Part shown: positions 5,936-61,371 of the stretch, one piece after another | Numbering within the stretch: the stretch's first letter is position 1 | How the letters are laid out: every line of letters begins with the position of its first letter | Program-made: the position numbers and the translations under genes | DNA from: Leisingera caerulea DSM 24564 | GTDB taxonomy: Bacteria; Pseudomonadota; Alphaproteobacteria; Rhodobacterales; Rhodobacteraceae | Reading direction: 5' to 3' | Assembly (NCBI RefSeq): GCF_000473325.1 | Contig: NZ_AXBI01000011.1 | Location: 1-64,000 of the forward strand | DNA length: 64,000 bases | Notes under the pieces: model-generated | What the model was told of the DNA's origin: nothing | Seen by the model: only the letters and a program-made list of their open reading frames with translations | Databases searched by the model: none

Positions 5936-5977
5936 ATGATCCGGATCAACCCGCCGCCGCCTGCGGCATGGCACACT
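5936..5977 (+). promoter_or_regulatory. Fnr-type box and -10 for cbpA
   Basis: ATGATCCGGATCAA (5936-5949) is a one-mismatch Fnr/Dnr dyad. A -10-like CACACT (5972-5977) lies so that the dyad would be centred at about -41.5 from a start near 5984, a class II activator arrangement. It also partly abuts the parS site 23 bp upstream. Confidence 0.55.
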
Positions 5978-6008
5978 GCGGACGCAATGGCGCGGGGAGA
6001 GCTGTGGT

Positions 6009-6929
6009 ATGGAATACAGGGACTACTACAAAATTCTCGGCATCGCACCGGATGCCGAACCCGGCGAAATCAAGCGCGCCTTCCGCAAACTGGCGCGCAA
6101 GTACCACCCGGACATCAATGAAGGTGCCGAAGCAGAGGCGATGTTCAAGGACGTGAACGAAGCCTACGAAGTGCTCAAAGACCCCGAGCGCCGCGCCGCC
6201 TATGACCAGCTGGGCAAACCCGGGTCCGGATCCCAGGACAGCTTCCGCCCGCCGCCGGGATGGGAGGGCGGATTTGAGTTCACCGGCGGCGGCCCGGAGC
6301 GGGCGGAAGCCTTCAGCGACTTCTTCGAGTCCCTCTTCCGGCGCCGGGGGCAGCCATTTGACCGGCCCGGTGCAGACCAGCACGCCCGCCTGCAGCTGGA
6401 CATCGAGGACGCCTACCGCGGGGCAACCCGGGTTCTGAAGCTTCGGGTGCCGCAGGCGGCGCCGGATGGCTCGGTGCAGCTGCAGGATCGCAGCATCACG
6501 GTGCATGTCCCGAAAGGTATCCTCGAAGGCCAGCACATCCGGCTGCCGGGTCAGGGCCTGGCGCCGCTGGGCGGAGGGGTGCCGGGGGATCTGTTTCTGG
6601 AGGTCAGCTTTGCCCCGCATCCGGTGTACCGGGCGGATGGCAAGGATCTGTATCTGGAACTGCCCGTGGCCCCCTGGGAGGCTGCGTTGGGCGGCAAGGT
6701 GATGATACCCACGCCCGATGGCAAGGTCGCGCTGACCGTGCCTGCAAATGCCCGCAGCGGCCAGAAGCTGCGGCTGAAGGGCAAGGGGCTGCCGGGCACA
6801 CCGCCCGGGGACATCTATGCCACCCTGAGGATCGTGAACCCCAAGGTGACAACGGAAGAGGCGCGCAGGGTCTTTGAGCAGATGGCCCGGGAGGTGCCGT
6901 TCAACCCGCGTGCCGGTATCGGAGGATAG
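6009..6929 (+). CDS. cbpA: DnaJ-type co-chaperone CbpA
   Basis: 306 residues. An N-terminal J domain (1-70) carries the Hsp70-stimulating HPD tripeptide at 33-35. It is followed by a Gly/Phe-containing linker and two C-terminal substrate-binding beta domains (about 120-300). There is no CxxCxGxG zinc finger, which separates CbpA from DnaJ; the length matches E. coli CbpA (306). It stimulates DnaK ATPase and binds unfolded protein. The gene pairs with cbpM four bases downstream and has an Fnr-type box upstream. Confidence 0.93.
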   Translation: MEYRDYYKILGIAPDAEPGEIKRAFRKLARKYHPDINEGAEAEAMFKDVNEAYEVLKDPERRAAYDQLGKPGSGSQDSFRPPPGWEGGFEFTGGGPERAEAFSDFFESLFRRRGQPFDRPGADQHARLQLDIEDAYRGATRVLKLRVPQAAPDGSVQLQDRSITVHVPKGILEGQHIRLPGQGLAPLGGGVPGDLFLEVSFAPHPVYRADGKDLYLELPVAPWEAALGGKVMIPTPDGKVALTVPANARSGQKLRLKGKGLPGTPPGDIYATLRIVNPKVTTEEARRVFEQMAREVPFNPRAGIGG

Positions 6930-6933
6930 ACGC

Positions 6934-7233
6934 ATGAAACCCGCAACCGCAAAAACTGCAGTTGTTGTCAGCCTGTCGCTGGATGAGCTGTGCCGGTTTT
7001 GCCAGGCCGACAGAAATTGGGTCATCGAACTGGTCGAACACGGGGTGCTGGAGCCCGAAGGGGCCTCAGTCCAAAGCTGGCAGTTCCACAGTGTGAGCAT
7101 TGCCCGCGCCAAGAAGGCGCGGCGGCTGAACCGGGATCTGGGCGTCAACGCCGCAGGGGTGGCGCTGGTGCTGGATCTGCTGGCGGAACGGGAAGAGATG
7201 CTGCGGCGGCTGGCCGTGCTTGATGACCGCTAG
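6934..7233 (+). CDS. cbpM: Chaperone modulator CbpM
   Basis: 99 residues. ATG 6934 is chosen for the GGAGG at 6921-6925. The protein has the MerR-like helical fold of CbpM: a SLDELCRFC start, the WVIELVEHGVLEP segment, then a WQFHSVSIARAKKARRLNRDL recognition-like helix and a coiled-coil-like C-terminus. In E. coli CbpM binds the J domain of CbpA and blocks its stimulation of DnaK. Gene order cbpA-cbpM with a 4-base gap supports the call. Confidence 0.88.
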   Translation: MKPATAKTAVVVSLSLDELCRFCQADRNWVIELVEHGVLEPEGASVQSWQFHSVSIARAKKARRLNRDLGVNAAGVALVLDLLAEREEMLRRLAVLDDR

Positions 7234-7236
7234 CGG

Positions 7237-7959
7237 ATGTGCTGGAGCCTGGAAGCCTCGGCCGTGATGGCGGCTGCCGGGACCGCCGCGGCGGTGGTCT
7301 GCTGGCGGCAGGGCCAGCCCTTGGCGGTCTGGGGCGCGCTGGGGTACTTCACGGTGATGGAGGTGCTGCAGATTGCGGGGTACCTGAGCGTCGATGAGTG
7401 CAGTTCAGCTGCGAACAAGGGTTCCACGCTTCTGTCCTATCTGCATATCGCCTTCCAACCCATTGTAATCAATGCCTTTGTTCTGGAATTGGTGCCCAGT
7501 GCCGTCCGGCGGCGCTGCCGGGTCTGGGTGCTGGCCCTGAGCTGCGCTGCGGCGGGGGTTATGCTGCTGCAGCTTGTGCCGCTGCCCGCCTTGGGGAGCT
7601 GCGCGCCGGGGGCGCCGTTGTGCGCTGAGGTGCTGTGCACCGTGTCCGGAAGTTGGCATATCGCCTGGAATGTGCCCTATAACGGGCTGCTGGTGCCGGT
7701 GGACCGGGCGTTGGGGGTGCAATCCGGCTTTCCGGCTTACATGGCGGCGGTGTTCCTGATGCCGCTGGCCTATGGGGCGTGGCGGTTTGTGCTGGTGCAT
7801 GTGCTTACCGGGCCGGTGCTGGCCTGGATGCTGACCAGCAACCCCAATGAGATGCCCGCCGTCTGGTGCCTGTTTTCCATCGTGATCCTGTGCATCGGGC
7901 TGAGCCCCTGGGTGCGCGGTGCCGTTTCAACCAGCAGTTGGTGGGGCGTGCGGGTTTGA
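7237..7959 (+). CDS. Seven-TM membrane protein of unknown function (DUF5765-like)
   Basis: 240 residues starting MCWS, with about seven hydrophobic helices along the whole length. Two pairs of Cys (CSS near 51, and C...C in the GSCAPGAPLCAEVLC stretch near 128-142) lie in loops and could be paired or bind metal. I associate the MCWS start and layout with the DUF5765 family, from memory only. It starts four bases after cbpM, so it is probably the third gene of the cbpA operon. No function can be given. Confidence 0.75.
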   Translation: MCWSLEASAVMAAAGTAAAVVCWRQGQPLAVWGALGYFTVMEVLQIAGYLSVDECSSAANKGSTLLSYLHIAFQPIVINAFVLELVPSAVRRRCRVWVLALSCAAAGVMLLQLVPLPALGSCAPGAPLCAEVLCTVSGSWHIAWNVPYNGLLVPVDRALGVQSGFPAYMAAVFLMPLAYGAWRFVLVHVLTGPVLAWMLTSNPNEMPAVWCLFSIVILCIGLSPWVRGAVSTSSWWGVRV

Positions 7960-7966
7960 CGGCGGG

Positions 7967-8008
7967 TTGATCCTGATCACTGCGCCGGGAACTGGCTTGC
8001 GGTATTCT
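7967..8008 (+). promoter_or_regulatory. Fnr-type box and -10 for the alcohol dehydrogenase operon
   Basis: TTGATCCTGATCAC (7967-7980), one mismatch to TTGAT-N4-ATCAA, with TATTCT at 8003-8008. Dyad centre to predicted start is about 41.5 bp. This is one of the clearest class II arrangements in the window. Confidence 0.65.
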
Positions 8009-8028
8009 GAAATGCGGGGAGACGCAGA

Positions 8029-9009
8029 ATGCGTGCAATGGTTTTCCATAAGGCAAAGGAGCCGCTGCGGCTGGAGGAGATTGCCGAGCCGGAACCCGGA
8101 CCCGGGGAGGTTCTGATCCGGGTCGAAGCCTGCGGCGTGTGCCGCACCGATCTGCATATCTTTGACGGTGATTTATCCGGCCCCAAGGTGCCCCTGATCC
8201 TGGGGCATGAGATTGTCGGTCGTATCGCGGCCCTGGGCCCGCAGGCTGAGGGGCTGGAGATCGGCCAGCGGGTGGGAGTGCCCTGGCTGGGGGCCACCTG
8301 CTGCCACTGCCGCTATTGCCGGGAGGGGCAGGAGAACCTGTGCGATGCGCCGGAGTTCACCGGCTATACCCGCAACGGCGGTTTTGCCGAGGCCTGCGTG
8401 GCGGATGCGCGCTTTGTGTTTCCGCTGGGCGGCGGCGATCCGGTTGCGCTGGCGCCGCTGCTGTGCGCCGGGCTGATCGGCTATCGCAGCTACCGCATGG
8501 CGGGGGCGGGCCTTAATATCGGGCTGTACGGGTTTGGCGCTGCGGCGCATATCCTGACGCAGCTGGCGGTCTGGCAGGGCCGCAAGGTGTTTGCGCTAAC
8601 GAAGCCGGGCGACAGCGAAGCGCAGGCGTTTGCCCGCAGCCTGGGCGCGGCCTGGGCGGGCGGGTCTGATGATCTGCCGCCGGAACCGCTGGATGCGGCG
8701 ATCCTGTTTGCGCCCGTGGGCAGCCTGGTGCCCGCCGCCCTGAAGGCCGTGCGCAAGGGGGGCAGGGTGGTCTGCGGCGGCATCCACATGAGCGACATTC
8801 CCGCCTTTCCCTATGCCGATCTGTGGGGCGAGCGGCACATTCTGTCGGTTGCCAATCTGACCCGGCAGGACGGCGAGGACTTCCTGCCGCTGGCCGCCAA
8901 GGCGGGCGTCGTCACTGAACACCGCGCCTACGCCTTGGAAGACGCCAATCAGGCGCTGGAGGACATGCGGCAGGGGCGGCTGCAGGGGGCTGCGGTTCTG
9001 GTGCCCTGA
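8029..9009 (+). CDS. Zinc-dependent alcohol dehydrogenase (MDR superfamily)
   Basis: 326 residues. The catalytic zinc site is represented by C38 (CGVCRTD) and H60-E61 (GHE). Structural-zinc cysteines C91, C94, C97 and C105 have the usual C-x2-C-x2-C-x7-C spacing. A Rossmann segment near 173 (GLYGFGAAAH) replaces the more usual GxGGxG, typical of the shorter 'adh_fam_2' alcohol dehydrogenases. It probably interconverts alcohols and aldehydes with NAD(P); the substrate is unknown. It is first in a likely operon with the Lon-type protease and Usp-like gene, behind an Fnr-type promoter, suggesting a fermentative role. Confidence 0.88.
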   Translation: MRAMVFHKAKEPLRLEEIAEPEPGPGEVLIRVEACGVCRTDLHIFDGDLSGPKVPLILGHEIVGRIAALGPQAEGLEIGQRVGVPWLGATCCHCRYCREGQENLCDAPEFTGYTRNGGFAEACVADARFVFPLGGGDPVALAPLLCAGLIGYRSYRMAGAGLNIGLYGFGAAAHILTQLAVWQGRKVFALTKPGDSEAQAFARSLGAAWAGGSDDLPPEPLDAAILFAPVGSLVPAALKAVRKGGRVVCGGIHMSDIPAFPYADLWGERHILSVANLTRQDGEDFLPLAAKAGVVTEHRAYALEDANQALEDMRQGRLQGAAVLVP

Positions 9010-9030
9010 TCCCGGAAAAAGGAGAGCGCA

Positions 9031-12228: not shown

Positions 12229-12269
12229 TTGATGCAAATCATTTCGGCGTGCCGCAGCGGGCCTAGACT
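12229..12269 (+). promoter_or_regulatory. Fnr-type box and -10 upstream of the pfkB operon
   Basis: TTGATGCAAATCAT (12229-12242), one mismatch, with TAGACT at 12264-12269. Spacing is within one base of the -41.5 class II arrangement. It would drive the genes at 12303, 12837 and 13248. Confidence 0.6.
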
Positions 12270-16603: not shown

Positions 16604-16645
16604 CATAATGCCATGAATCCCGGCAGGCCGATTGATGCCGCTCAA
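16604..16645 (-). promoter_or_regulatory. Fnr-type box and -10 for ppsA
   Basis: TTGATGCCGCTCAA (16632-16645) is a one-mismatch dyad. On the minus strand CATTAT (16609-16604) is exactly placed for -41.5 activation of ppsA. On the plus strand only a weak GATAGG lies at the matching distance, so activation of the divergent GerW-like gene is less certain. Confidence 0.6.
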
Positions 16646-17078: not shown

Positions 17079-17080
17079 CC

Positions 17081-18371: not shown

Positions 18372-18414
18372 AGTATAGGAGCCGCCGCCGGGGCGCGGCT
18401 TTAACCTGCCTCAA
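18372..18414 (-). promoter_or_regulatory. Fnr-type box and -10 for the cytochrome c gene
   Basis: On the minus strand TTGAGGCAGGTTAA (18414-18401) lies upstream of a good -10, TATACT (18377-18372). The dyad is degenerate in its inner bases, but the spacing is within one base of -41.5. Confidence 0.45.
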
Positions 18415-20134: not shown

Positions 20135-20176
20135 TTGATGCGGGTTATAGCGGCGCGCCCGCTGCCGGGGGAACAT
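20135..20176 (+). promoter_or_regulatory. Possible Fnr-type box and -10 for the acs-pdh operon
   Basis: TTGATGCGGGTTAT (20135-20148), one mismatch to TTGAT-N4-GTTAA, with GAACAT (20171-20176) at the right distance for -41.5. The leader would be only about 11 bases. A good left half-site but modest -10 keeps confidence low. Confidence 0.4.
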
Positions 20177-25390: not shown

Positions 25391-25432
25391 TTGATTTTAA
25401 TTAAAGCGGCTCCGGCGGGCAGGTGGCACAAT
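25391..25432 (+). promoter_or_regulatory. Fnr-type box and -10 for the phasin-like gene
   Basis: TTGATTTTAATTAA (25391-25404), one mismatch, with CACAAT at 25427-25432 placed exactly for a dyad centred at -41.5. It stands out as an AT-rich patch in GC-rich surroundings. Confidence 0.65.
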
Positions 25433-25469: not shown

Positions 25470-25916
25470 ATGCCAGAAAAATCGACATACAAAAGTGCGG
25501 GGATTTTTGCGGAAGCGCTGAAGCCGTGGCAAAGCGCGATGCAGTTCAACCCGATGTACAAGCCGCAAGTGGAGCAATTCTGGAACGTTCAGGAGAAGCT
25601 CCTGGATGAAGCGGAAGTGTTCGCGCGCCATTGGTTCGAGCGCCGGCATGAGGCGGCGCGGACCGCCCTGGACACGGCCCGGACGATAGCATCGGACGGC
25701 TCCGGGGCGCCGGTTTCGGTGGCCGAAGCCTTTGCGGAATGGCAGCGCCATTCGGCAGAGCGTATTGCCGAGGACGGCCAGGAATGGCTTGGCATGATGT
25801 CCCGCTGCGCCCGCTACATGAGCGATACCGAAGCGGACGCGGTGGAAGAGACCATCGGCGAAGCGGTGAAGATGACCAAGAAGGCCACCAAGACCGCGCA
25901 GTCCGATCCGGTCTGA
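25470..25916 (+). CDS. Phasin-like protein
   Basis: 148 residues, all-helical and amphipathic, with the phasin pattern of an N-terminal Phe/Trp-rich start, FNPMYKPQVEQFWNVQEKLLDEAE, and long helices with regularly spaced Ala. The C-terminus is Lys/Thr-rich (KMTKKATKTAQ). Phasins coat polyhydroxyalkanoate granules. The presence of 3-hydroxybutyrate dehydrogenase and a thiolase elsewhere in the window fits. The call rests on helical pattern and composition, so a general stress or structural protein is possible. It has a monocistronic look with its own Fnr-type promoter. Confidence 0.65.
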   Translation: MPEKSTYKSAGIFAEALKPWQSAMQFNPMYKPQVEQFWNVQEKLLDEAEVFARHWFERRHEAARTALDTARTIASDGSGAPVSVAEAFAEWQRHSAERIAEDGQEWLGMMSRCARYMSDTEADAVEETIGEAVKMTKKATKTAQSDPV

Positions 25917-27952: not shown

Positions 27953-27995
27953 GATATAGCAGATCGCCCGGGTGTCAGGGGTTGATGCCGGTCAA
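27953..27995 (-). promoter_or_regulatory. Fnr-type box and -10 for usp and the exchanger
   Basis: TTGATGCCGGTCAA (27982-27995), a near-consensus dyad, with TATATC (27958-27953) on the minus strand within one base of the -41.5 arrangement. Confidence 0.6.
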
Positions 27996-28027: not shown

Positions 28028-28041
28028 TTAACGCTGGTTAA
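28028..28041 (+). promoter_or_regulatory. Palindromic Crp/Fnr-type box upstream of hsp20
   Basis: TTAACGCTGGTTAA has perfect five-base arms, TTAAC-N4-GTTAA. It lies 33 bp from the usp box, in the 236-bp gap between divergent usp and hsp20. The expected -10 position (28064-28069, GAGTCT) is poor, so the promoter itself is uncertain. Confidence 0.45.
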
Positions 28042-28721: not shown

Positions 28722-29138
28722 ATGCTTGTAGAAGAGATCATGTCGGTGCCCGCACGGTTTGCCCGCCGGGAGGACAGCGTGGCCAGCGCTGCGGAGCAGA
28801 TGCGCAGCCTGGGGATCGGCGTGCTGCCGGTAGTCGATGACGGCGAGGTTGTCGGCGTTGTCACCGATCGGGATCTAGCCCTGGTGCTGGCCGGGCAGGA
28901 CGGTTTGCTGAAGGGGCTGTCGATTGCCGCCGTGATGAATGACGGGGTGATCTGCTGCCGGGCGGAAGACAGCATCGAAGCCGCGGCGGCGCTGATGGGG
29001 GATCACCAGGTCCGCCGCCTGCCGGTGCTGGATGATGCGGGACGGCTGGCCGGGCTCTTGTCGGTGACGGACATCGCCGTCCATGCCTCGGAACAGCTGG
29101 CCGGTGAGGCCCTGGGCGAGATCGCCGAATACCGTTAG
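28722..29138 (+). CDS. Two-CBS-domain protein
   Basis: 138 residues made up of two CBS motifs: about 1-60 (VEEIMSVPARFARREDSVASAAEQM...GVVTDRDLA) and 70-130 (AVMNDGVICCRAEDSIEAAAALM...GLLSVTDIA). Such stand-alone CBS pairs bind adenine nucleotides or act as energy sensors. GGAAAGGAGAGG precedes the start. Its stop overlaps, tail to tail, the stop of the Crp/Fnr regulator in TTAG at 29135-29138. Confidence 0.92.
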   Translation: MLVEEIMSVPARFARREDSVASAAEQMRSLGIGVLPVVDDGEVVGVVTDRDLALVLAGQDGLLKGLSIAAVMNDGVICCRAEDSIEAAAALMGDHQVRRLPVLDDAGRLAGLLSVTDIAVHASEQLAGEALGEIAEYR

Positions 29139-29887
29139 TCCGGCAGCGGCGTGATTTCGGCTGCCAGCCGCTCCGGCTCCACCCCGGCGATGTCCGACAG
29201 GGTGCCAAGATCGGTGATCCGGATGTCCATGTGATCGGCGGTTTCGACCAGTCCGTTCCTGACAAAGCGGCGCAGGGTCCGGCAGACGTGGACGGCGGTC
29301 AGGCCGGTGAAATCGCCGATGTGCCTTTGGGTGAGCGGCAGGTGAAAGGCGCAATTTTCCGACAGGCCCAGCGGTTTCAGCCGCAGGCACAGCTCGATCA
29401 GCGCATAGGCGATGCGGCTTTCGGCGCTGCCGCGCCCCAGGCGCAGCATGCGTTCCGACAGCCGGGCGCGTTCGGCAGCCTGAACGTGTTCATTTGCCCG
29501 CGCCAGACGCGGCGATTCCGCCAGCATCCGATGCCAGACCGCCAGCGGAATGACCGAAATCAGCGCCTCCGTGACCGCCTCGATGTTGAGCCCGGCCGTT
29601 TTGCCGTCGGCCGAGGTGGGATCCGCGATATCGCCCGGCAGCATGAAATCAATCAGCTGCACTTCGCCGTTCAGAGAGGATTTCGAGGTGGCCAGCCAGC
29701 CGTCGATCACAACGATGACCTTGCAGTTGTGCTCGCCGTCATGCAGCAGGATCTTATTCGCCGGGACGCGCTGGACGTTTCGGCGGAAACTGTTGAGCGC
29801 GGTGTCGCGGCTGTCAAACTCCATCGCGCCAACCCTCAGGCTGGTCACGTTGGTGTATTGTATCGGGATTGCGCCTTGGCTGGTCAC
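29135..29887 (-). CDS. Crp/Fnr-family transcriptional regulator
   Basis: 250 residues from GTG 29887 (AGGG nearby); ATG 29824 would cut into the sensor domain. An N-terminal cyclic-nucleotide-binding-like barrel is followed by a long dimer helix and a winged helix-turn-helix (LPLTQRHIGDFTGLTAVHVCRTLRRF). There is no N-terminal Cys cluster, so it is not an oxygen-sensing Fe-S Fnr. The recognition helix has Val-x2-Cys-Arg where Fnr has Glu-x2-Ser-Arg, so it may read a different site such as TTAAC-N4-GTTAA at 28028. It sits in the middle of the stress island, a natural local regulator. Confidence 0.88.
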   Translation of the reverse strand: MTSQGAIPIQYTNVTSLRVGAMEFDSRDTALNSFRRNVQRVPANKILLHDGEHNCKVIVVIDGWLATSKSSLNGEVQLIDFMLPGDIADPTSADGKTAGLNIEAVTEALISVIPLAVWHRMLAESPRLARANEHVQAAERARLSERMLRLGRGSAESRIAYALIELCLRLKPLGLSENCAFHLPLTQRHIGDFTGLTAVHVCRTLRRFVRNGLVETADHMDIRITDLGTLSDIAGVEPERLAAEITPLPD

Positions 29888-32430: not shown

Positions 32431-32472
32431 TTGACACCCATCAATGCGGCGCGGCCCGGTTTGGCCGATCCT
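32431..32472 (+). promoter_or_regulatory. Fnr-type box and -10 for the DUF2267 gene
   Basis: TTGACACCCATCAA (32431-32444) is a full-consensus TTGAY-N4-ATCAA dyad. GATCCT (32467-32472) is at the -10 position, giving a -41.5 centre and a start about 25 bases before the ATG. Confidence 0.6.
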
Positions 32473-33001: not shown

Positions 33002-33529
33002 TTATTGGGTGACAACCACTGTGCAGGCCGCGTGGTGCAGGACCTTCTGGGACACGCTTCCCATCAGGATTTCGCGCACCTGACCCAGCCCGCGCCTGCC
33101 GATGACGATCATCCCTGCATTTTCGAGTTCGGCGGTTTTCAGAATACCGTCCGCGTAATCGCCCGCAGACAGGTGCGTGACCACGTCCTGCGCGCCGGCA
33201 TCCTTGGCTCGGTGCTCTGCCCAATTGAGGATTGTCTCGCCGATGGCCAGAATCGCGTTTGCCTTTTCGCGCTCTTCGGTGGCGCTGGCGAACAGCCCCA
33301 GGAAGTTCGCGGGCTGGCCGCGGGGGGTAAGGTCCTGGGCTGCCGCCACTTGTTCATACAGCTGCTCGGACCTGGCGAGCTGCATCATTTCCGCGGCCGG
33401 CCGCCCGTGCAGGTAAACGTGAACGATGCTGAGGCCGCGCCCAAGCTTGTTGGACAATTCCGCCGCGCAATCCACCGCGCGGTTGCCTGATGCCGATCCG
33501 TCAGTGGCAACGAGAATTCTTTCAGTCAT
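33002..33529 (-). CDS. Universal stress protein, single domain
   Basis: 175 residues from ATG 33529. One Usp domain: ERILVATDGSASGNRAVDCAAEL at the N-terminus and the complete ATP loop GRRGLGQVREILMGS (G-x2-G-x9-G-S) near the C-terminus, ending HAACTVVVTQ. It is the best-preserved ATP-binding Usp of the window. An insertion of about 30 residues (75-105) makes it longer than the usual 140-150. Own promoter with a Crp/Fnr-type box. Confidence 0.92.
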   Translation of the reverse strand: MTERILVATDGSASGNRAVDCAAELSNKLGRGLSIVHVYLHGRPAAEMMQLARSEQLYEQVAAAQDLTPRGQPANFLGLFASATEEREKANAILAIGETILNWAEHRAKDAGAQDVVTHLSAGDYADGILKTAELENAGMIVIGRRGLGQVREILMGSVSQKVLHHAACTVVVTQ

Positions 33530-33563: not shown

Positions 33564-33605
33564 AGTTTAGCCAGGCAAGGGCCCGGCCGCATTGCCTGGC
33601 GTTAA
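33564..33605 (-). promoter_or_regulatory. Crp/Fnr-type box and -10 for usp
   Basis: On the minus strand TTAACGCCAGGCAA (33605-33592) with TAAACT (33569-33564) exactly at the -41.5 geometry. Confidence 0.5.
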
Positions 33606-33834: not shown

Positions 33835-33876
33835 TTAACCGCAGTCAATGCGCCGGGTGCAGGCGCATGGTCAAAT
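33835..33876 (+). promoter_or_regulatory. Crp/Fnr-type box and -10 for the sulfite dehydrogenase operon
   Basis: TTAACCGCAGTCAA (33835-33848) with TCAAAT (33871-33876, five of six bases of TATAAT) exactly at the -41.5 geometry; predicted start near 33883. Confidence 0.6.
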
Positions 33877-43952: not shown

Positions 43953-45161
43953 TCATGGCTTTCCGACGCTGCGCCCGCTCAGGACCGGGCGGCGGACCGG
44001 GCCGGACAGGGCGGGCAGGAAACCCGCGACGAAGGCCAGCCATCCCGCACACCAAAGCAGCGCTGCGGCAGTTATCAGGGTTTCGGCATGCGCAGGAAAA
44101 AGGGGAACCGCCAACCGGACCCACGCCGTGAGCCAGACCAGAACAACCCCGGCCTTGAATCCGGAACCGGCCCGCATTGTCCCGTCCGGGGCGTGGCAGG
44201 CGGCCCGCCCGGCAATGGCCATGATCAGCCCCGGCATGGCCCCGATGGTAATCGCGTGGACAGCCGCTGCCATTGGGTAGCCGGAAAAGCCAAGCCCGGC
44301 GGCCCCGATGGCCAGCGCGCCAAGCGGCAGCCAGAGAAAAGCCATGTGCTGCGCTGCCAGCAGCGGATTGCGAAGCGTCGCGCAGGTGCGCCAGCCCTTC
44401 ATGGTCCAGAGCATTGTCACCGCTGACGCAATCAATGCTGCATGGGCCGCGCCGGAAAAGCCGGCCAGTGTCAGGACCACCACCAGTGCCAGCAGCCCCT
44501 GCGGCAAGAAGCACAGCCGCGTCCAGCCCTGCACCGGCGGGCCTGAATAGCCCTGCTGCGCCAGCCAGTTGCGCGTAAATGCAGGGACCGCTCGCGCGCC
44601 GGCGCTGAACATCAGCAGGATCAGGCCGGTCAGGATAATCCGGGCAAGCGCAAGGCAGCCCCATATATCGCCGGCGGCCGCTCCGGTCAGGAAAACGGCT
44701 TCGCCGGCGCCCAGGGCTGGAACTGCCGCGGCCAGCCCCAGCTTGCGATAGGCCTTGGCTGCGGCAATCTGCCGGCAAAGGAAGACGGAGAGGCCAAGGA
44801 AGAAAGCCGCATTGAGCAATAGCGGCACCGCAAACGGCAGCGCTTCGAAACCGGCAGTTGCGATCCGTGCCAGGACCCAGGCCAGCGTCAATGCCTTCAA
44901 ACCTGTGCCGCGCAATGGCGGCTGCGCGGTCCAGCCGGGCAACGCCGTCAGAAGATAGCCGCCGATTGCCGCGGCGGTGAAGCCAAAGATCAGCTCATGG
45001 ACATGCCACAAAACGGCAGTCGGAAAAGCCGGGGCAGGCAAGCCCAGTCGGACGCCCAATGGCCACCAAGCCACAGTCAGCAGTGCGCACAGGAACGCAG
45101 ACAGGAAAAGCGGGCGGTGCGGCGCGTCCCAGAACGCGCTGAAATCCCGCCCCGAAATCAA
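43953..45161 (-). CDS. nnrS: NnrS-family haem-copper membrane protein
   Basis: 402 residues from TTG 45161, whose TTGA overlaps the ubiV stop. Twelve predicted membrane helices; His residues in VLWHVHELIFGFTAAAIGGYLLTALPGWT (read in parts) and in AVHAITIGAMPGLIMAI are the conserved metal/haem positions of NnrS. NnrS lowers nitric oxide toxicity and is usually NO/Fnr-Dnr controlled. It is the last gene of ubiT-ubiU-ubiV-nnrS. The start has only a weak ribosome-binding site, consistent with coupling. Confidence 0.85.
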   Translation of the reverse strand: MISGRDFSAFWDAPHRPLFLSAFLCALLTVAWWPLGVRLGLPAPAFPTAVLWHVHELIFGFTAAAIGGYLLTALPGWTAQPPLRGTGLKALTLAWVLARIATAGFEALPFAVPLLLNAAFFLGLSVFLCRQIAAAKAYRKLGLAAAVPALGAGEAVFLTGAAAGDIWGCLALARIILTGLILLMFSAGARAVPAFTRNWLAQQGYSGPPVQGWTRLCFLPQGLLALVVVLTLAGFSGAAHAALIASAVTMLWTMKGWRTCATLRNPLLAAQHMAFLWLPLGALAIGAAGLGFSGYPMAAAVHAITIGAMPGLIMAIAGRAACHAPDGTMRAGSGFKAGVVLVWLTAWVRLAVPLFPAHAETLITAAALLWCAGWLAFVAGFLPALSGPVRRPVLSGRSVGKP

Positions 45162-46063
45162 GCCGAGGCCGGATCTGCGGACCAGGAGGCTCCGCACGGC
45201 CCTGTCAGGAACCCGTCGCTCAGCCGGATGTCCGGCGAGATTTTCCGGACCTCGCTGGCAAGAGCCCCGCGGGGCGACTCTCCGTTCAAACGCGCGCGGT
45301 AGGCTTGGCAAAGGCCGGAAAACCCGTGCGATTGCGGTGACAGGCGCAGGGCGGAAACCCCCGCTGCGGCCAGGGCCTCGATGTGGTAGTCCGCGCAGGC
45401 ATAGCTGTCCGACAGGGTCTGCACGCCGTTCATGGCCATAAAGGGCTGACCCTCCAGCGTGCGCACTTCCAGCCCGTCCGGGTCCGCTTCGCAAGCAAAC
45501 TGGCAGTTGTCTTTGGTCCGCTTGTGCAGGCGCGCGTGATAGCAGCGCCCGGATACCGCCAGCGGCAGCCGGCCATGGCCCCAGACCTCAATGGCTACAC
45601 CCAGCCCGCTTGCCGCCCGGGCCAGCGTCTCAACCGAGGCGAGCGGCAATTCCGGCGGCAGGCAGACGCGTTTGGCCCCCAGCGACGCCAGCCAGGCCAA
45701 TGTCCCCTCGTTATAGACGTTTATCAGCGGCCCGACGTGAAAACCGGTGCCCTGGGGCAAATTCGCCAGCGCTGTCAGGTCGTTGATTTCAACCGTCACC
45801 CCCATTTCCGCCAGTTCTGCGGTCAGCTTGCGCTCGCGCTTGAGGGTCACCAGCGCCAGGCTGGTCAGCACTGCCTCCTTGCCTGCATCAGCCAGGGCAG
45901 CCAGCGCCTCCGGGATGCGGTCCTGATAGAATGGCAGGCGTTTGGAGCACACCAGCTCACCCAGGACGACCCGGTCAACGGGGGTTCCGGCCAGTTCGCG
46001 GTAGAACGTGCTCCATTGTTCGGCCGGCCAGAAGAATTGGTTCGGCCCGACAGTCAGTTCCAT
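45158..46063 (-). CDS. ubiV: Oxygen-independent ubiquinone hydroxylation protein UbiV
   Basis: 301 residues of the U32 peptidase family. Four candidate [4Fe-4S] cysteines, C39, C174, C187 and C191, keep the spacing of E. coli UbiV (39/180/193/197). UbiU and UbiV form a complex that hydroxylates the ubiquinone ring without O2, using prephenate as oxygen donor. It lies four bases downstream of ubiU and overlaps nnrS. The assignment follows from the cysteine pattern and the ubiT-ubiU-ubiV gene order. Confidence 0.94.
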   Translation of the reverse strand: MELTVGPNQFFWPAEQWSTFYRELAGTPVDRVVLGELVCSKRLPFYQDRIPEALAALADAGKEAVLTSLALVTLKRERKLTAELAEMGVTVEINDLTALANLPQGTGFHVGPLINVYNEGTLAWLASLGAKRVCLPPELPLASVETLARAASGLGVAIEVWGHGRLPLAVSGRCYHARLHKRTKDNCQFACEADPDGLEVRTLEGQPFMAMNGVQTLSDSYACADYHIEALAAAGVSALRLSPQSHGFSGLCQAYRARLNGESPRGALASEVRKISPDIRLSDGFLTGPCGASWSADPASA

Positions 46064-46067
46064 GCTG

Positions 46068-47045
46068 TTATCTCCAGGTCTTCTTGTAGGCGCCGGTGGT
46101 CATGGCCTGACCCTCGGACAGGCGCGCCAGCATCCCCTGCGGCAGCGGCTGGCCTGCCTCCAGCGCATCAACGGCGGCGCGGAAGTTGCGCACGACTTGC
46201 GCCACATACGACTTGGAGCGCTGCCGCCCTTCGATCTTCAGCGCCGTGACACCGGCCTTGTGCAGCTGCGGGATCAGTTGCTCGGCATTCAGGCTTGCCG
46301 GGTCTTCAAACAGGTGGCCGGTTTGGCCGCCGGCGGAAAAGCAGCCTTTGCAGAGTGTCGGATACGGGGCAGGCTCATCCTTTGCCGCACGGTGGATCGT
46401 ATATCCGCCAAGCTTGGCATCCAGCGCGCCGTTGTCGTTGTGATACTCCACATGGCTGGCGGGAGAGCAGACGCCGTTCATGTTCGGTGACAGCCCGGTC
46501 GCATAAGAGGACAGCGAACAGCGCCCCTCAGCCATCACGCACAGGCCGCCAAAGACGAAAACTTCGGTCTCGGCCTCTGTTTCGGCATTGATGGCGGCGA
46601 TTTCCGGCACCGAGAGAACCCGCGGCAGCACCACCCGTTTCACACCAAAGGTCCTGGCATAGTAGTTGATAATGTCCGCATTGGCGGCGGCGGCTTGCAC
46701 AGAAAGATGCAGGCGCAGGCCGGGGTGGGTGCGCGCGGCATAGTCCAGCAAACCCGGGTCGGCCAGGATGACGGCATCGGCTCCGGCGTTTTCGGCATCG
46801 TCGATGGCGCGGTGCCAGACAGGCTGATCGCCTGCGCGCGGAAAGGTATTGACCGCCACCAGGACCTTGGCGCCATGGCTGTGGGCAAAGGCCACGCCGT
46901 CGCGCATCTCGCTGCGGTCGAAGTTCAGCCCGGGAAAATTGCGGGCGTTGGTCTCGTCGTTGAAGCCGCAATAGACAGTATGCGCTCCGGCTTTGACCGC
47001 GGCCCGCAGCGCGGCGGGCGTGCCGGCCGGGCAGACGATTTCCAT
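46068..47045 (-). CDS. ubiU: Oxygen-independent ubiquinone hydroxylation protein UbiU
   Basis: 325 residues when started at ATG 47045 (MEIVCPAG), which overlaps the ubiT stop as TGATG and matches the E. coli start; an ATG six bases upstream is possible. The Fe-S cysteines fall at C169, C176, C193 and C232, the same numbers as in E. coli UbiU. U32 peptidase barrel. Partner of UbiV in anaerobic ring hydroxylation of ubiquinone. Confidence 0.95.
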   Translation of the reverse strand: MEIVCPAGTPAALRAAVKAGAHTVYCGFNDETNARNFPGLNFDRSEMRDGVAFAHSHGAKVLVAVNTFPRAGDQPVWHRAIDDAENAGADAVILADPGLLDYAARTHPGLRLHLSVQAAAANADIINYYARTFGVKRVVLPRVLSVPEIAAINAETEAETEVFVFGGLCVMAEGRCSLSSYATGLSPNMNGVCSPASHVEYHNDNGALDAKLGGYTIHRAAKDEPAPYPTLCKGCFSAGGQTGHLFEDPASLNAEQLIPQLHKAGVTALKIEGRQRSKSYVAQVVRNFRAAVDALEAGQPLPQGMLARLSEGQAMTTGAYKKTWR

Positions 47046-47584
47046 CACCATGCCGCGTCCTCCGCTGGACGGGCCAGGCAGACACCTGTGCGCCGCCCGG
47101 CAAACCCCGCGGCCTGCAGCAGAAGGCCGGAAAACGGCCCGGACATGGCAGCAATCTCCTGGGAAATATCCAGCTCAGCGTCATCCACGGCATTGCGGAG
47201 GGCCAGCGCCGCAGCGGTATCGCCTTCGATCACAAGATCACGCGAGAAAAACAGGGCGTCCCCGTCATAGGCACCGTGGACCAGTCCCAGCAGCGCTGCC
47301 AGCGGGCCGGAAATCCGGGCGGCTCCGTCACAGCTGCGGCGTGTGGCGCGGACCGACGGGAGGCCATCGTTCGGATCAAGGCAAAGAACAACGGGCAGGT
47401 CGGTGGGATCCAGGACAAACCGCGTGCGGCTGTGCTCTCCCAAGCGGCGGAACAGGCCGGGATGGCGCCTGGCGATACGGCGCGAGCAGGCCGTCAGCGA
47501 AAGGGACAATGGCCCGAGGGGCAGTATTCGCAGCAGGCGCGCAAGCGCTGCGGGACATTGGGGGATCCGGGTTCGGGTCAACAA
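47045..47584 (-). CDS. ubiT: Anaerobic ubiquinone biosynthesis accessory factor UbiT (SCP2 domain)
   Basis: 179 residues from TTG 47584 with AAAAGGA upstream. An N-terminal amphipathic part with basic residues is followed by the SCP2 lipid-binding fold and the UbiT signature ALFFSRDLVIEGDTAAALALRNAVDDAELD (read in parts). It is thought to bind prenylated intermediates and stands in for UbiJ under anaerobiosis. First gene of the ubiT-ubiU-ubiV-nnrS operon, behind an Fnr-type box. Confidence 0.9.
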   Translation of the reverse strand: MLTRTRIPQCPAALARLLRILPLGPLSLSLTACSRRIARRHPGLFRRLGEHSRTRFVLDPTDLPVVLCLDPNDGLPSVRATRRSCDGAARISGPLAALLGLVHGAYDGDALFFSRDLVIEGDTAAALALRNAVDDAELDISQEIAAMSGPFSGLLLQAAGFAGRRTGVCLARPAEDAAW

Positions 47585-47622: not shown

Positions 47623-47664
47623 GTTCTAGGCCCCGGTCCGCCGCCCAAGTTTGTCGTGCGTCAA
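47623..47664 (-). promoter_or_regulatory. Fnr-type box and -10 for ubiTUV-nnrS
   Basis: TTGTCGTGCGTCAA (47651-47664), one mismatch to TTGAY-N4-GTCAA. On the minus strand TAGAAC (47628-47623) is exactly at -41.5 geometry. Towards ubiD the -10 position reads poorly. In E. coli ubiUV are Fnr-activated, so the function fits. Confidence 0.6.
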
Positions 47665-53396: not shown

Positions 53397-53438
53397 TTGA
53401 TGCAGAGCAAGGCATCCCGCCGCAGATCCGATTACGCT
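53397..53438 (+). promoter_or_regulatory. Possible Fnr-type box and -10 for the exporter operon
   Basis: TTGATGCAGAGCAA (53397-53410), one mismatch, with TACGCT (53433-53438) exactly at -41.5 geometry. A competing -10 (TATTGT, 53446-53451) would favour the later ATG at 53472. Confidence 0.45.
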
Positions 53439-57163: not shown

Positions 57164-58288
57164 ATGCGGCGGCTGTCCCGCATATTCTGGCTCGGCCTCA
57201 AGGAGATGATGAGCCTGCGCCGCGACTGGGTGATGATGGCGCTGCTGGTCTGGTCCTTCACGCTGTCGCCGGTGATGGAGGCAACAGGCGTGGCAACCTC
57301 AGTGAACAACGCCTCGATCGCCTTTGCCGACGAGGACAACTCGCCCCTGTCCCGCAAACTGGCCGAAGCGTTCTTTCCGCCGGAATTTCAGCCGGTGGTT
57401 CAGGTCGCCCCCGGCACCGGCGCCGCGCGGATGGACGCGGGCGATTTTCTGTTTGTGGTGGCGGTGCCGCCCGGCTTCGAAAAGGATCTGCGCGCCGCCC
57501 GCGTGCCGGAAATCCAGGTGCTGGTTGATGCCACCGCGATGGAGCAGGCAGGCATCGGCGTGCAGTACATCACCAGCATCCTCAGCACCGAGATCCGCCG
57601 CTTTGCCATCGGTGCCGACCTGGCAGAGCCGCAGGCCCTGGGCATCATCATCCGCAGTGCCTTCAACCCCAACCGCGACACCGTGCGCTTTGCCGGCATC
57701 AACGCGCTGATCGGCCAGATCATGTGGCTGACCACGATCCTGACCGGCGCCGCGATGATCCGCGAACGCGAGCACGGCACCATTGAGCACCTGCTGGCGA
57801 TGCCGCTGTCGCCCTTTGACATTGCAGCGGCCAAGATCTGGGCCAACGCCACGGTGGTGCTGGCCGGGGCAGCGCTGTCGCTGGCCTTTGTGATGCAGGG
57901 GGTCCTGGGCATCCGCATCGCCGGGTCCACGATGCTGTTCCTCTGCGGCACGGCGCTGTTTCTGTTCACCGCCACCGCGCTGGGGGTGTTCCTGGCAACC
58001 GTGGCGCGCTCGATGGCGCAGTTTGCGCTGTTGGTGATGCTGACCATTCTGCCGATGCTGATGCTGTCGGGCGGCGAAACCCCGGTGGAGAGCCAGCCCG
58101 TCTGGCTGCAGGCCATCACCACTTTCCTGCCCTCGCGCCACTACATGGCCGCCAGCCAGGCCATCGTCTTCAAGGGCGCAGGCTTTGAAACCGTCTGGCC
58201 GGAGTTCCTGTGGATGGCGCTGCTGGGCGCCGCGCTGCTGGCCACCAGCCTGCTGCTGTTCCGCCGCTCGGTGGCGCACGACAGCTAG
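57164..58288 (+). CDS. ABC-2 type permease (YhhJ-like)
   Basis: 374 residues (E. coli YhhJ about 375). One N-terminal helix, a large periplasmic loop (about 45-175), then five helices with the ABC-2 core motif REREHGTIEHLLAMPLSPFDI. It starts on the base after the rbbA-like stop, so translation is coupled. Together the three genes give a complete envelope exporter. Its stop overlaps tail to tail (CTAG) the stop of the next Usp gene. Confidence 0.9.
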   Translation: MRRLSRIFWLGLKEMMSLRRDWVMMALLVWSFTLSPVMEATGVATSVNNASIAFADEDNSPLSRKLAEAFFPPEFQPVVQVAPGTGAARMDAGDFLFVVAVPPGFEKDLRAARVPEIQVLVDATAMEQAGIGVQYITSILSTEIRRFAIGADLAEPQALGIIIRSAFNPNRDTVRFAGINALIGQIMWLTTILTGAAMIREREHGTIEHLLAMPLSPFDIAAAKIWANATVVLAGAALSLAFVMQGVLGIRIAGSTMLFLCGTALFLFTATALGVFLATVARSMAQFALLVMLTILPMLMLSGGETPVESQPVWLQAITTFLPSRHYMAASQAIVFKGAGFETVWPEFLWMALLGAALLATSLLLFRRSVAHDS

Positions 58289-58692
58289 CGGATCACAACC
58301 ACGGTGCAGGCGGCGTGGCGCACAACCCGCGCCGCCGTCGATCCCAGGAAATAGTCCTGCAGCCCGGGCCGGTGCGACGCGATGACGATGCAATCGGCGC
58401 CCTGCTGATCGGCATAATCGGTAATCGCGCGACCGGCATGGCCGGTGACAACCACAGCCTTGACGTCTTTCACCCCGCCCAGATCGGCCTTGAGCGACGC
58501 CAGCATTTCGTCATGGGTATGCTCCAGCAGACCTTCCGGCAGCTGCTGAACCACATATCCGGGAATGGCTTCGGCCACGGTGAGCGCGGTGATCTTGCCG
58601 CCGCTGTCTGCCAGCAGCCGGGCGGCCTCCATTGCAGCGGCAGTGTTGGAGCCGTGATCCGGTGCGATGGGCACAAGCACATTCTTGTACAT
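58285..58692 (-). CDS. Universal stress protein, single domain (UspA-like)
   Basis: 135 residues from ATG 58692, six bases after GGAGG; another ATG directly upstream is less well spaced. Compact Usp fold starting MYKNVLVPIAPDHGSN and ending VVRHAACTVVVIR. The nucleotide loop is SHRPGLQDYFLGST, with the G-x2-G part changed. It resembles the Usp at 33002 at the C-terminus. Own promoter with a Crp/Fnr-type box. Confidence 0.92.
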   Translation of the reverse strand: MYKNVLVPIAPDHGSNTAAAMEAARLLADSGGKITALTVAEAIPGYVVQQLPEGLLEHTHDEMLASLKADLGGVKDVKAVVVTGHAGRAITDYADQQGADCIVIASHRPGLQDYFLGSTAARVVRHAACTVVVIR

Positions 58693-58718
58693 CATGTTCC
58701 TCCTCAGGTGGTTGCACA

Positions 58719-58760
58719 ACGTTACGCCCGCGGCGTCCGGCCTGCATTGATTGAGGTTAT
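58719..58760 (-). promoter_or_regulatory. Crp/Fnr-type box and -10 for usp
   Basis: On the minus strand ATAACCTCAATCAA (58760-58747), one mismatch, with TAACGT (58724-58719) at exactly the -41.5 geometry. Confidence 0.5.
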
Positions 58761-58804
58761 CCGGCTCAGCGTAGTGCCTCTCGCCGCACAGCAGCCGGTC
58801 CGGA

Positions 58805-60331
58805 TCACGCCGGGAACAGGGTGTCCTGCACCAGCCCGGCCACCTGTCCGGCCTCGCCGCCGCAGGCGATCCGGGTCCAGCCGGCCGGGTCCGCGCTGCG
58901 CTTCAGCTGCGCGTGCAGCACATCCGCATCCGCATCCGAGGCATCGCCGGTGCGGGCGGCGATCCGCTGCTCCAGCACGGCCGGATCAGCATGCAGCCAG
59001 ATGCCATCAAAGGGCACCCCCAGCCGCGCCGCCAGCGCCAGCGCCTGTTTCCGGTAACCCGCCTCCAGAAAAGTCGCATCAACGATAACGCTGTGGCCGG
59101 CGCGCAGGGCCTGCTCTGCCAGATCCAGCAGCCGGGCGTAGACTTTTGCGGTGACGTCCGGGCCATAGCCTTCGGCCGGCAGCCGGTCCAGCGGGGCGGC
59201 GCCGAACAGCGCCTTGCGCTCCACATCGCTGCGCAGGTGCACCGCGCCGGGCGCGGGCCGCAGCAGCGGCGCGACGCGCGCCGCAACCGTGGTTTTGCCG
59301 GTGCCCGACAGCCCGCCAACCGCCACCAGCCGCGGCGGCGCGGCGGCAAGGCAGTCCGCCGCCAGATCCAGATAGCTGCGGGCGTCCCCGGCAGCCTCTT
59401 CGGAGCCGCTGCCGGCCATCCCCTGCACCGTGACCATCGCCCGGATCGCGGCCCGCAGCGCCATGAACAGCGGCAGCGCAGCCAGCCCGCCATAGTCCCC
59501 CGCCGCCTGCAAATAGCTGTTCAGCGCCGCATTCGCCTGCGCTGCCGCGCCCCGGTGCAGCAGATCCATCAGCAAAAAGCCAAAGTCATAAAACACGTCG
59601 CAGGTGCCCAGCCGCTCATCGAACTCCAGCGCGTCAAAGGGCACCGGCCTGCCGTTGATCAGCACAAGGTTTCTCAGATGCAGATCCCCGTGGCACCTGC
59701 GCACATAGCCCGCGGCTGAGCGCTCCGTGAGACGCGGCGCGGCCTGCGCAAAGACCTGATCGGCTCTGTCCAGAAACGCCGCCACCCTGCCGCGGCCCAG
59801 CACCGGCTCCATGGCGTCAAAAGCCTCCCGCAGCTCATCTATGATCTCCCGGATCAGCACGGCACCGTCGGCACCCCGCCTCTCCGCATCCGCATGATAG
59901 GCGGCCACCGCGCTGCCAAGCCGGCCTGCCAATTCAACGGACAGCCCGCCGGCATCGGCGATACGGCTCAGCTCCGCCTCCCGCGGGAACCGGTGCATCC
60001 GCAGAACGTACTCGACCGGAGCCCCCGCGCCGTCCAGCGCCAGCCCCCCTGAGGCGTCGCGGGTCACCGCAACCACCCGGTCATAGATTTCGGGGGCTGC
60101 CGGGGCATTGAGGGCAAGCTCGCGCTCCAGAACAGCCTTGCGCGAGTCAAGCGATGAAAAGTCCAGATAGCTGTAGCGCACTGCCCGCTTGATCTTGAAC
60201 GCCAGGCCGCCGGTCAGGAACACATGGGCGGAGTGCGTCGTGACCACTTCAACGGGCCCGTCAGACCCATAGGCTGACGGGCTGCTCAGAAAGGCCACCG
60301 CTTCGGCCTGCTGGGTTTCTCCCGGATGCAT
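58805..60331 (-). CDS. Fusion of aminoglycoside-phosphotransferase-like kinase and P-loop ATPase
   Basis: 508 residues. The N-terminal domain (about 1-330) is kinase-like, with the Brenner motif CHGDLHLRN and the metal-binding FDALEFDERLGTCDVFYD. The C-terminal domain (about 335-508) is a P-loop NTPase of the AAA_33/zeta-toxin-like kind, with GGLSGTGKTTVA and a late Arg-rich lid. Such fusions are widespread but their substrates are unknown; both halves probably phosphorylate small molecules. An Fnr-type box lies 46 bp upstream. It is in the same orientation as the neighbouring Usp gene. Confidence 0.9.
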   Translation of the reverse strand: MHPGETQQAEAVAFLSSPSAYGSDGPVEVVTTHSAHVFLTGGLAFKIKRAVRYSYLDFSSLDSRKAVLERELALNAPAAPEIYDRVVAVTRDASGGLALDGAGAPVEYVLRMHRFPREAELSRIADAGGLSVELAGRLGSAVAAYHADAERRGADGAVLIREIIDELREAFDAMEPVLGRGRVAAFLDRADQVFAQAAPRLTERSAAGYVRRCHGDLHLRNLVLINGRPVPFDALEFDERLGTCDVFYDFGFLLMDLLHRGAAAQANAALNSYLQAAGDYGGLAALPLFMALRAAIRAMVTVQGMAGSGSEEAAGDARSYLDLAADCLAAAPPRLVAVGGLSGTGKTTVAARVAPLLRPAPGAVHLRSDVERKALFGAAPLDRLPAEGYGPDVTAKVYARLLDLAEQALRAGHSVIVDATFLEAGYRKQALALAARLGVPFDGIWLHADPAVLEQRIAARTGDASDADADVLHAQLKRSADPAGWTRIACGGEAGQVAGLVQDTLFPA

Positions 60332-60348
60332 TGGCTTACCCCCGTGGC

Positions 60349-60390
60349 AGATTAGCAGCGCCGCCGCCCTGCCGCCTTGAGCAAGGTCAA
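60349..60390 (-). promoter_or_regulatory. Fnr-type box and -10 for the kinase-ATPase fusion
   Basis: TTGAGCAAGGTCAA (60377-60390), one mismatch, with TAATCT (60354-60349) on the minus strand at exactly -41.5 geometry; the leader would be about 11 bases. Confidence 0.5.
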
Positions 60391-60430
60391 GCGGCGGCGG
60401 TCCGGACTTGGCAAAGGCGGCACTGCCGGA

Positions 60431-61276
60431 TCAATGGGCAAACAGAACCGGCAGTTCTGTCTGTTCGATCATCGTTCTGGTGGTGCCGCCGAACACCGCC
60501 TCGCGCAGGCGGGAATGGCCATAGGCGCCCATGACCACCAGATCCGCCCCGGCTTCCCGCGCACGGTCCTGGATGGCGCGGCCGACATCATGCCCGCCGC
60601 TGAGGAATTGCGAGACGGTCACAGTGCAGCCGTGGTGGCTGAGCCATGCCGCGGCATCCGTGCCGGGGTCCTCGCCGTCCCGCTCGTCTGTCAGATCCGG
60701 GTCAAAGCACCCGATGACAACCTCCTGCGCGCGGCGCATCCAGGGCAGCGCCGCATGGGCCGCGCGGGAGGCGGCCAGGCTGCTGTTCCACGCCAGGAAG
60801 ATGCGGCTGTAGCTTGCAAACGGCGCGCTGTTCAAGATCACCGGAACCGGCGACTGGAACAGCAGGCCGTGCAGCGCCTCCCGGAAGACCCCGTCTTTTT
60901 CCCTGACCCCCCCGGCGAACCCGGCAATGTCGCAGGACATGGCGCGGCGCGCGCACAGCAGCCGGATTTCGGCACCCGCAGACACCGCATACTGAACGTC
61001 GCCGGAACAGCCGCTCTGTGCCAGCAGCCCGTTAATTCCGGCGGCCCGGGTTTCTATCGCCGATTTCGACTCCGCGAACCGGTCAACCCAGTCCGCCGGC
61101 ATCGCCGCCGAGCCAAAGGCGGTTGCGCCGGACATGAAGTAGGGCCGGGCAGGCAAAGTCTCCAGCAGCAGGCAGGCCAGATAGGCGTCCTGTTTCCGGG
61201 CGGCCTCGGCTGCGGCGGTGACCGCCGCATCGCTGGTGTCTCTGCTGAGCACGATAAGAGAGGTTTTGCGTTGCAT
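60431..61276 (-). CDS. Tandem-domain universal stress protein
   Basis: 281 residues from ATG 61276, with GGAGG seven bases upstream. Two Usp folds; the second has MGAYGHSRLREAVFGG (G-x2-G-x9-G), the first is degenerate. Of the window's Usps this most resembles the one at 27030 around the nucleotide loop (YGHSRL). The two are probably paralogues within the island. Confidence 0.92.
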   Translation of the reverse strand: MQRKTSLIVLSRDTSDAAVTAAAEAARKQDAYLACLLLETLPARPYFMSGATAFGSAAMPADWVDRFAESKSAIETRAAGINGLLAQSGCSGDVQYAVSAGAEIRLLCARRAMSCDIAGFAGGVREKDGVFREALHGLLFQSPVPVILNSAPFASYSRIFLAWNSSLAASRAAHAALPWMRRAQEVVIGCFDPDLTDERDGEDPGTDAAAWLSHHGCTVTVSQFLSGGHDVGRAIQDRAREAGADLVVMGAYGHSRLREAVFGGTTRTMIEQTELPVLFAH

Positions 61277-61328
61277 GGCGGGCCTCCGGCAAATGGATCG
61301 CGGCAGGCGGGCATGCACACCGCGCCAG

Positions 61329-61371
61329 TCAGTAGATCAGGTCTGCACGCGGATGCCATGATCCCGATCAA
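61329..61371 (-). promoter_or_regulatory. Fnr-type box for usp
   Basis: On the minus strand TTGATCGGGATCAT (61371-61358), one mismatch. The -10 at the matching place (TACTGA, 61334-61329) is weak. The box overlaps the first unit of a three-fold repeat. Confidence 0.5.

Follow-up and report, generated by a model that had tools for sequence, protein, structure and literature searches.

The stretch of DNA considered here, referred to as the window, comprises bases 1–64,000 of a 70,306-base contig from the genome of Leisingera caerulea DSM 24564 (5.34 Mb in 9 contigs); it contains repABC and belongs to a RepABC plasmid of approximately 70 kb. Computational analysis revealed that 17 TTRAY-N4-RTYAA palindromes of the Crp/Fnr type in this window mostly share a promoter spacing, are for the most part conserved in relatives where compared, and appear to resolve into two motifs, the second of which is linked to a Crp/Fnr regulator gene, P0001, on the plasmid itself (Table 1). 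This is best explained by a plasmid-borne regulon for survival under low-oxygen and low-energy conditions with two Crp/Fnr inputs, the chromosomal FnrL and the plasmid-encoded P0001, a reading to which we assign a probability of roughly 0.7. The original prediction, made from the sequence of the window, had assigned all 17 boxes to a single Fnr/Dnr kind.

All 17 boxes of that prediction are present and read TTRAY-N4-RTYAA, 5 of them exactly and 12 with one mismatch. They were scored with a symmetric FnrL matrix (F matrix), which is independent of the window sequence and was built from 26 of the 28 sequences under Rhodobacter sphaeroides FnrL chromatin immunoprecipitation (ChIP) peaks in Table 2 of PMC2908626, with two non-canonical ChIP sequences and the 10 computed extra sites of that table being excluded. 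On the whole plasmid 10 sites reach an F score of at least 13.9, all of them intergenic and among the predicted boxes, and no coding site on the plasmid reaches this value. In shuffled intergenic DNA the mean number of sites at this level was 0.06 (at most 2, 500 shuffles) and in the shuffled whole plasmid 0.74 (at most 3, 200 shuffles), so that the weight-matrix comparison with shuffled controls and the rest of the replicon places the boxes far above chance (10 versus 0.06). A 400-kb sample of the remaining genome contained 4 such sites in 78.8 kb called intergenic and 10 in coding DNA; missed genes dilute the intergenic rate of this control, 20% of which received no gene assignment compared with 9% of the plasmid (6,413 of 70,306 bases), a dilution that does not affect the comparison within the plasmid. 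Codon-based gene calling yielded 59 genes for the window and 64 for the entire plasmid. As had been predicted, the IclR/TRAP/GMC unit has no box in the two stretches scored (best F score 5.8; best score with the second matrix, C, described below, 4.9). Seven boxes (18401, 20135, 28028, 33592, 33835, 47651, and 58747) score between 4.8 and 11.1 with the F matrix, the lowest score among the 26 ChIP sites being 10.7. For four of the seven (28028, 33592, 33835, and 18401) the second motif gives the higher score, and 20135 and 58747 are about equally low with both.

The predicted position of the dyads at -41.5, as in class II promoters, is supported by the -10 score, which peaks at offset 36, where the first base of the hexamer lies 29.5 bp from the dyad centre. 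Across 20 oriented promoters the mean at this offset is 0.96, and the next best offset reaches -2.01. The pattern xAxxxT occurs at offsets 35–37 in 14 of 18 chosen orientations (background 11%), and none of 20,000 random-offset draws reached the observed mean of these 18, a test that is favourable to the spacing because the orientations were picked by gene and five alternative ones were omitted. By sequence, the combination of a dyad at -41.5 with a -10 element that defines class II is present, although a good hexamer is not universal: none was found for 27982 towards hsp20, and those at 5936, 20135, 28028, and 32431 are weak.

The regulator P0001 contains HTH_Crp_2 and cNMP_binding domains; annotations in relatives extend its N-terminus by 21 residues. 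In the FNR, FixK and DNR families the recognition helix has Glu and Arg in the pattern ExxSR (PMC2908626); the helix of P0001, TGLTAVHVCRT, has VHVCR (VxxCR) instead. An N-terminal cysteine cluster for a [4Fe-4S] center, as in the FNR family, is absent from P0001, whose first cysteine is Cys34, present in 3 of 32 homologues, and its score against the NCBIfam FnrL model is 62.5 bits (cut-off 300). The chromosomal FnrL (P0002) scores 458.2 bits against the same cut-off and has the CGDC...CARC cluster and the LETVSR helix expected of an FnrL. The VHVCR clade is supported with 99/98 (33 rows, 32 with Cys by selection and one, L079, with Asn), and the helix cysteine is found in 120 of 120 homologues listed. 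In alignments to FixK2 and FNR this residue, Cys181, matches FNR Ser212, a residue named in PMC2908626, the matching of the residue number having been made in this analysis. A structure model places Cys181 within the predicted recognition helix; in fold the model comes closest to FNR, FixK2, and CRP, which is uninformative on the signal. Loss of Glu209 may relax the demand for G at position 3. No description of a VHVCR Crp/Fnr subfamily was found in the literature searched. The same genome encodes on another replicon (contig C1) a second FnrL-like protein, L010, which scores 221 bits against the FnrL model, is devoid of the FNR N-terminal cysteine pattern and has the helix AATISR.

A putative operator of the VHVCR regulators was derived from 25 loci around distant P0001 homologues (34–51% identity), a set from which six Leisingera loci, two duplicates and five loci with a VHVNR helix were left out. 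A de novo search over all 5-base half-sites and spacers of 0–10 is led by TTAAC-N4-GTTAA (24 versus 0.18 expected), followed at the same N4 spacer by TTGAC (15.5 versus 0.78), TTGAT (9.5 versus 0.4) and then TTTAC. The extended operator reads GCA-TTRAC-N4-GTYAA-TGC. In 21 of the 25 loci there are altogether 45 intergenic sites carrying no more than one mismatch; as a set they show GCA/TGC flanks and share the -10 offset (at offset 36, 14 of 55 orientations exceed the cut). In the 17 genomes that bear a homologue, the 17 FnrL loci show TTGAT-N4-ATCAA and not a single TTAAC-N4-GTYAA in 10.1 kb of intergenic DNA, while the VHVCR loci of the same genomes contain 17 TTAAC-N4-GTYAA and 3 TTGAT-N4-ATCAA sites in 30.4 kb. 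Among the matches listed for 21 genomes in which P0001 has a hit, four being of the VHVNR type, 22 of 56 TTAAC-N4-GTYAA places are no more than 25 kb from the regulator (0.78 expected). When the TGC flank is required as well, the same holds for 23 of 35 distinct places in 17 other genomes (0.54 expected), and the flanked pattern is present in 13 of 17 homologue-bearing genomes versus 5 of 18 without homologue. Location and TGC flank thus separate genomes with from those without the regulator.

A C matrix was built from the 45 non-Leisingera sites, the plasmid being held out. Its top six matches on the plasmid, 28028, 33835, 32431, 33592, 18401, and 20135, are all intergenic predicted boxes, the first four (16.5–26.3) lie within approximately 4 kb of P0001, and nothing in the 400-kb genome control reaches a C score of 12. 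Within the 5.34-Mb genome only the plasmid contains TTRAY-N4-RTYAA-TGC, at three places, and a TGC or GCA flank is found on 7 of 34 sides of the predicted boxes, the background being 2.6% per side. The operator GCA-TTRAC-N4-GTYAA-TGC of the subfamily is thus found near the gene of its putative regulator. The prediction of a plasmid set of Fnr-type boxes is supported, but not that all 17 are of one Fnr/Dnr kind: four boxes fit the extended VHVCR operator best or also, and 18401, 20135, 58747, and 47651 are intermediate. All boxes as one motif was accordingly rejected in favour of separate F and C motifs.

Fourteen boxes were compared with Leisingera relatives, of which 13 had at least one relative and 61358 had none; 47651, 58747, and 60377 were outside the comparison. 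Identity amounts to 341 of 380 core positions versus 2251 of 3417 flanking positions, counts that include relative L039 at 16632 and relative L038 at 27982, which are unaligned at the box. Substitutions often keep the dyad: 7967 is mirrored, TTAAC becomes TTGAC in 28028 and 33592, and 20135 reads TTGATGCGCATCAT in L038. Box 28028 is kept in L040, L026, and L038, 33835 and 5936 each in three relatives, 25391 in four, and 18401 in one only. The class is mostly stable as well, the boxes of hsp20 or CBS and of the sulfite oxidase being C-type, that of DUF2267 dual (L040, L038) and those of cbpA, adh, the hydrolase, and ppsA F-type in relatives too. A 20.6-kb stretch of Leisingera M527 without the regulator contains three F-type sites and no C-type site. 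Seven above-cut-off sites in the loci of the relatives fall in called coding DNA. The window is approximately 98% identical to L. caerulea plasmids of about 70 kb and, for the first half, which was queried, approximately 91% identical to L. aquaemixtae plasmids of about 60 kb.

Several observations weigh against two inputs with P0001 as reader of the second motif. Four of the 25 VHVCR loci have no C-type site, the flanked pattern is missing in 4 of 17 regulator-bearing genomes and present in 5 of 18 regulator-less ones, and per-genome counts of TTAAC-N4-GTYAA alone fail to split the groups by eye. The upstream region of P0001 is without a box on this plasmid, so that autoregulation was rejected here, whereas five distant homologues have one. 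Moreover, TTAAC-N4-GTCAA is reported as a proven FnrL/DnrD-dependent site in Dinoroseobacter shibae (PMC5398030).

That FnrL acts through this site at D. shibae nirS-nosR2 (PMC5398030), that ten boxes score like ChIP sites and that L010 is an FnrL relative would suit one regulon of FnrL, or of FnrL together with L010, in which a single Fnr site, with variations, underlies all 17 boxes and P0001 serves other targets. We regard this as unlikely, since the F scores of 28028 and 33592 (4.8 and 5.3) are below all 26 ChIP sites, the FnrL loci of 17 genomes have no TTAAC-N4-GTYAA site, and all three TGC-flanked sites of the genome adjoin P0001. Less probable still is that the TTRAC boxes form a nitric oxide (NO) branch under the chromosomal Nnr-like NO regulator L006 (helix LHTVSR). 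The DnrD dependence reported in D. shibae (PMC5398030), the nnrS gene on the plasmid and sampled TTAAC-N4-GTCAA sites away from VHVCR regulators, which precede cytochrome d1, Fer4_5, and cytochrome c genes, speak for it; yet GCA/TGC flanks occur on 2 of 46 sides at the sampled denitrification-type sites, 20 regions hand-picked from the matches listed with AAA-spacer sites over-represented, versus 37 of 90 at VHVCR loci (Fisher P 1.5e-6), and the C-type boxes of the plasmid bear the VHVCR flanks and adjoin P0001. The TTAAC core alone was rejected as diagnostic, as it also precedes cytochrome d1 (nirS-type), Fer4_5 (nosR-like), and cytochrome c (norC-like) genes. Finally, with 7 of 17 boxes scoring under 12 with the F matrix, these seven could be chance occurrences and only the approximately ten F-type boxes real, which is very improbable given that the independent C matrix places four of them within its top five hits and that orthologues of five (18401, 20135, 28028, 33592, and 33835) retain the box. 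CtrA, whose site TTAAC-N5-GTTAAC has a spacer of 5 (PMC7232146), was rejected because the de novo TTAAC motif stands at spacer 4 and is outside the top six at spacer 5.

Table 1. Crp/Fnr-type boxes in the window and the plasmid-encoded regulator (F, FnrL matrix; C, VHVCR-operator matrix; the number behind a hexamer is its offset).
Position	Strand	Class	Gene(s)	F	C	-10 hexamer
28028..28041	+	C-type	hsp20 (28109) then CBS protein (28722)	4.8	26.3 (best on plasmid)	
33835..33848	+	C-type	sulfite-oxidase-like gene (34031) and genes after	11.1	21.8	TCAAAT, 36
32431..32444	+	dual C/F, both GCA and TGC flanks	DUF2267 gene (32504)	19.3	18.3	
33592..33605	-	C-type	Usp gene (33475, -)	5.3	16.5	TAAACT, 36
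18401..18414	-	intermediate	cytochrome c gene (18333, -)	8.4	10.8	TATACT, 37
20135..20148	+	intermediate	acsA-pdhA-E2-ACP run (20194) or Na/Pi gene (20078, -)	8.6	8.9	
25391..25404	+	mixed	phasin-like gene (25470)	14.6	7.3	
27982..27995	-	F-type	Usp gene (27872, -)	19.3	7.3	TATATC, 37 (minus side)
5936..5949	+	F-type	cbpA-cbpM-DUF5765 (6009)	16.7	-0.9	
7967..7980	+	F-type	Zn alcohol dehydrogenase (8029), Lon-like gene	14.0	-0.4	TATTCT, 36
12229..12242	+	F-type	hydrolase (12303) to pfkB-family kinase	16.7	2.9	TAGACT, 35
16632..16645	.	F-type	ppsA (16573, -) / YtfJ-like gene (16713, +)	16.5	4.3	CATTAT, 35; TAGGGT, 36
47651..47664	-	weak F/intermediate	SCP2 (47584, -), U32, U32, NnrS	10.3	4.9	TAGAAC, 36 (minus side)
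53397..53410	+	F-type	HlyD-ABC exporter operon (53454)	15.2	-1.0	TACGCT, 36
58747..58760	-	intermediate, one GCA flank	Usp gene (58692, -)	8.6	7.1	TAACGT, 36
60377..60390	-	F-type	AAA_33 gene (60331, -)	14.8	7.7	TAATCT, 36
61358..61371	-	F-type	Usp gene (61276, -)	16.7	1.4	TCTACT, 35
29135..29824	-	regulator P0001	HTH_Crp_2 and cNMP_binding domains			

For the plasmid regulon with two inputs, we infer binding, activation and the signal sensed from this arrangement. Both regulators would act as class II activators from -41.5. FnrL, as the chromosomal O2 sensor, would read the TTGAT-N4-ATCAA-type boxes of cbpA, adh, hydrolase-pfkB, ppsA, two Usp genes, HlyD-ABC, and the AAA gene, and P0001 would read the GCA-TTRAC-N4-GTYAA-TGC boxes of hsp20-CBS, DUF2267, the Usp gene at 33475, and the sulfite oxidase, while intermediate boxes may answer to both. 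Low-oxygen promoters would then be the main organising feature of the replicon, and sites commonly lumped together as "Fnr/Dnr" would fall into separable classes. For the VHVCR subfamily there is now a concrete operator and target list, and the coupling of a plasmid to both the oxygen sensor of its host and a regulator of its own becomes testable.

The target genes form the functionally coherent set that had been anticipated, matching low-oxygen gene kinds known from other alpha-proteobacteria. At 0.5% O2, similar kinds are reported as induced in Bradyrhizobium diazoefficiens among proteins and transcripts (PMC6515984), and the predicted FixK, DNR, and FNR regulons in Table 1 of PMC2908626 contain similar families. 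The R. sphaeroides FnrL regulon, as described in PMC2908626, shares with the plasmid the TTGAT-N4-ATCAA box, Usp and SCP2/U32/ubiD targets and an FnrL orthologue, but it is mainly chromosomal, whereas the plasmid set consists mostly of other genes and includes boxes that are not FnrL-like. The microoxic FixK2 set of B. diazoefficiens (PMC6515984) resembles it in Usp, CBS, DnaJ-like, phosphoenolpyruvate synthase, 1-PFK-family kinase, AdhP, Hsp20, HlyD, and MBL members and differs in being chromosomal and linked to FixLJ-FixK2. Another roseobacter Crp/Fnr regulator, DnrE of D. shibae, is likewise described as acting mainly on extrachromosomal genes (PMC5398030); dnrE is chromosomal in a denitrification cluster, in contrast to the P0001 gene, which lies on the plasmid among the boxes. 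The FnrL/DnrD sites at D. shibae nirS-nosR2 (PMC5398030) have the same TTAAC-N4-GTCAA core near -41.5 but are of a kind whose sampled members mostly are without GCA/TGC flanks. These sampled sites (L127-L146) differ from the VHVCR sites in a tendency to CC...GG flanks and to spacers of AAA or TTT.

C-type boxes elsewhere precede CBS proteins (8 matching that of the plasmid), 8 phasin-like genes (with 9 box-gene links), the gene of the regulator (5), and a P-type ATPase (1), as well as genes with ATP-synt_ab, DcuC, PhaC, dodecin, or S30AE domains. Less in keeping with low-energy persistence, the theme that these targets suggest, are an RTX-repeat protein, a histidine kinase, and a gene that has no match in Pfam. 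The phasin-like gene at 25470 on the plasmid scores below the Phasin_2 cut-off, which is exceeded in 2 of 7 homologues scanned. Two distant loci (L033, 11243-12658; L104, 13372-14766) have an ATP-synthase-beta-like gene (ATP-synt_ab, V/A-type C-terminal match) behind a C-type box, so that the VHVCR regulator may control an alternative ATPase operon there.

FixK2 is reported to be inactivated by oxidation of another cysteine near the DNA-binding domain (PMC9104804), which makes a thiol switch plausible in VHVCR regulators; FixK2 has the helix LETVSR, and its redox cysteine C183 is placed elsewhere than Cys181 of P0001. More tentatively, VHVCR proteins might represent an undescribed Crp/Fnr class in which the conserved helix cysteine serves as thiol switch at a DNA-contact position, the reduced form binding GCA-TTRAC-N4-GTYAA-TGC and the oxidised form not, with a private regulon for low-oxygen survival on plasmids and islands beside that of the host FnrL. 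If true, this regulon would comprise phasin, CBS, and Hsp20 and, in other genera, an ATP-synthase-like operon, dodecin, and a ribosome-hibernation-like factor.

The single box at 16632-16645 lies in the divergent ppsA/YtfJ-like promoter and has a -10-like hexamer at class II distance both ways. Box 47651 was rejected as mainly a ubiD site, the better target being the minus-strand SCP2-U32-U32-NnrS genes with TAGAAC at offset 36, and it perhaps also serves ubiD (47826, +). The SCP2-domain gene (47045-47584), missed by the codon-based gene caller, the two U32 peptidases and NnrS are co-directional at 43953-47584 on the minus strand, with no gap scoring as a promoter box, and constitute a putative operon for anaerobic-ubiquinone-like functions and NO tolerance.

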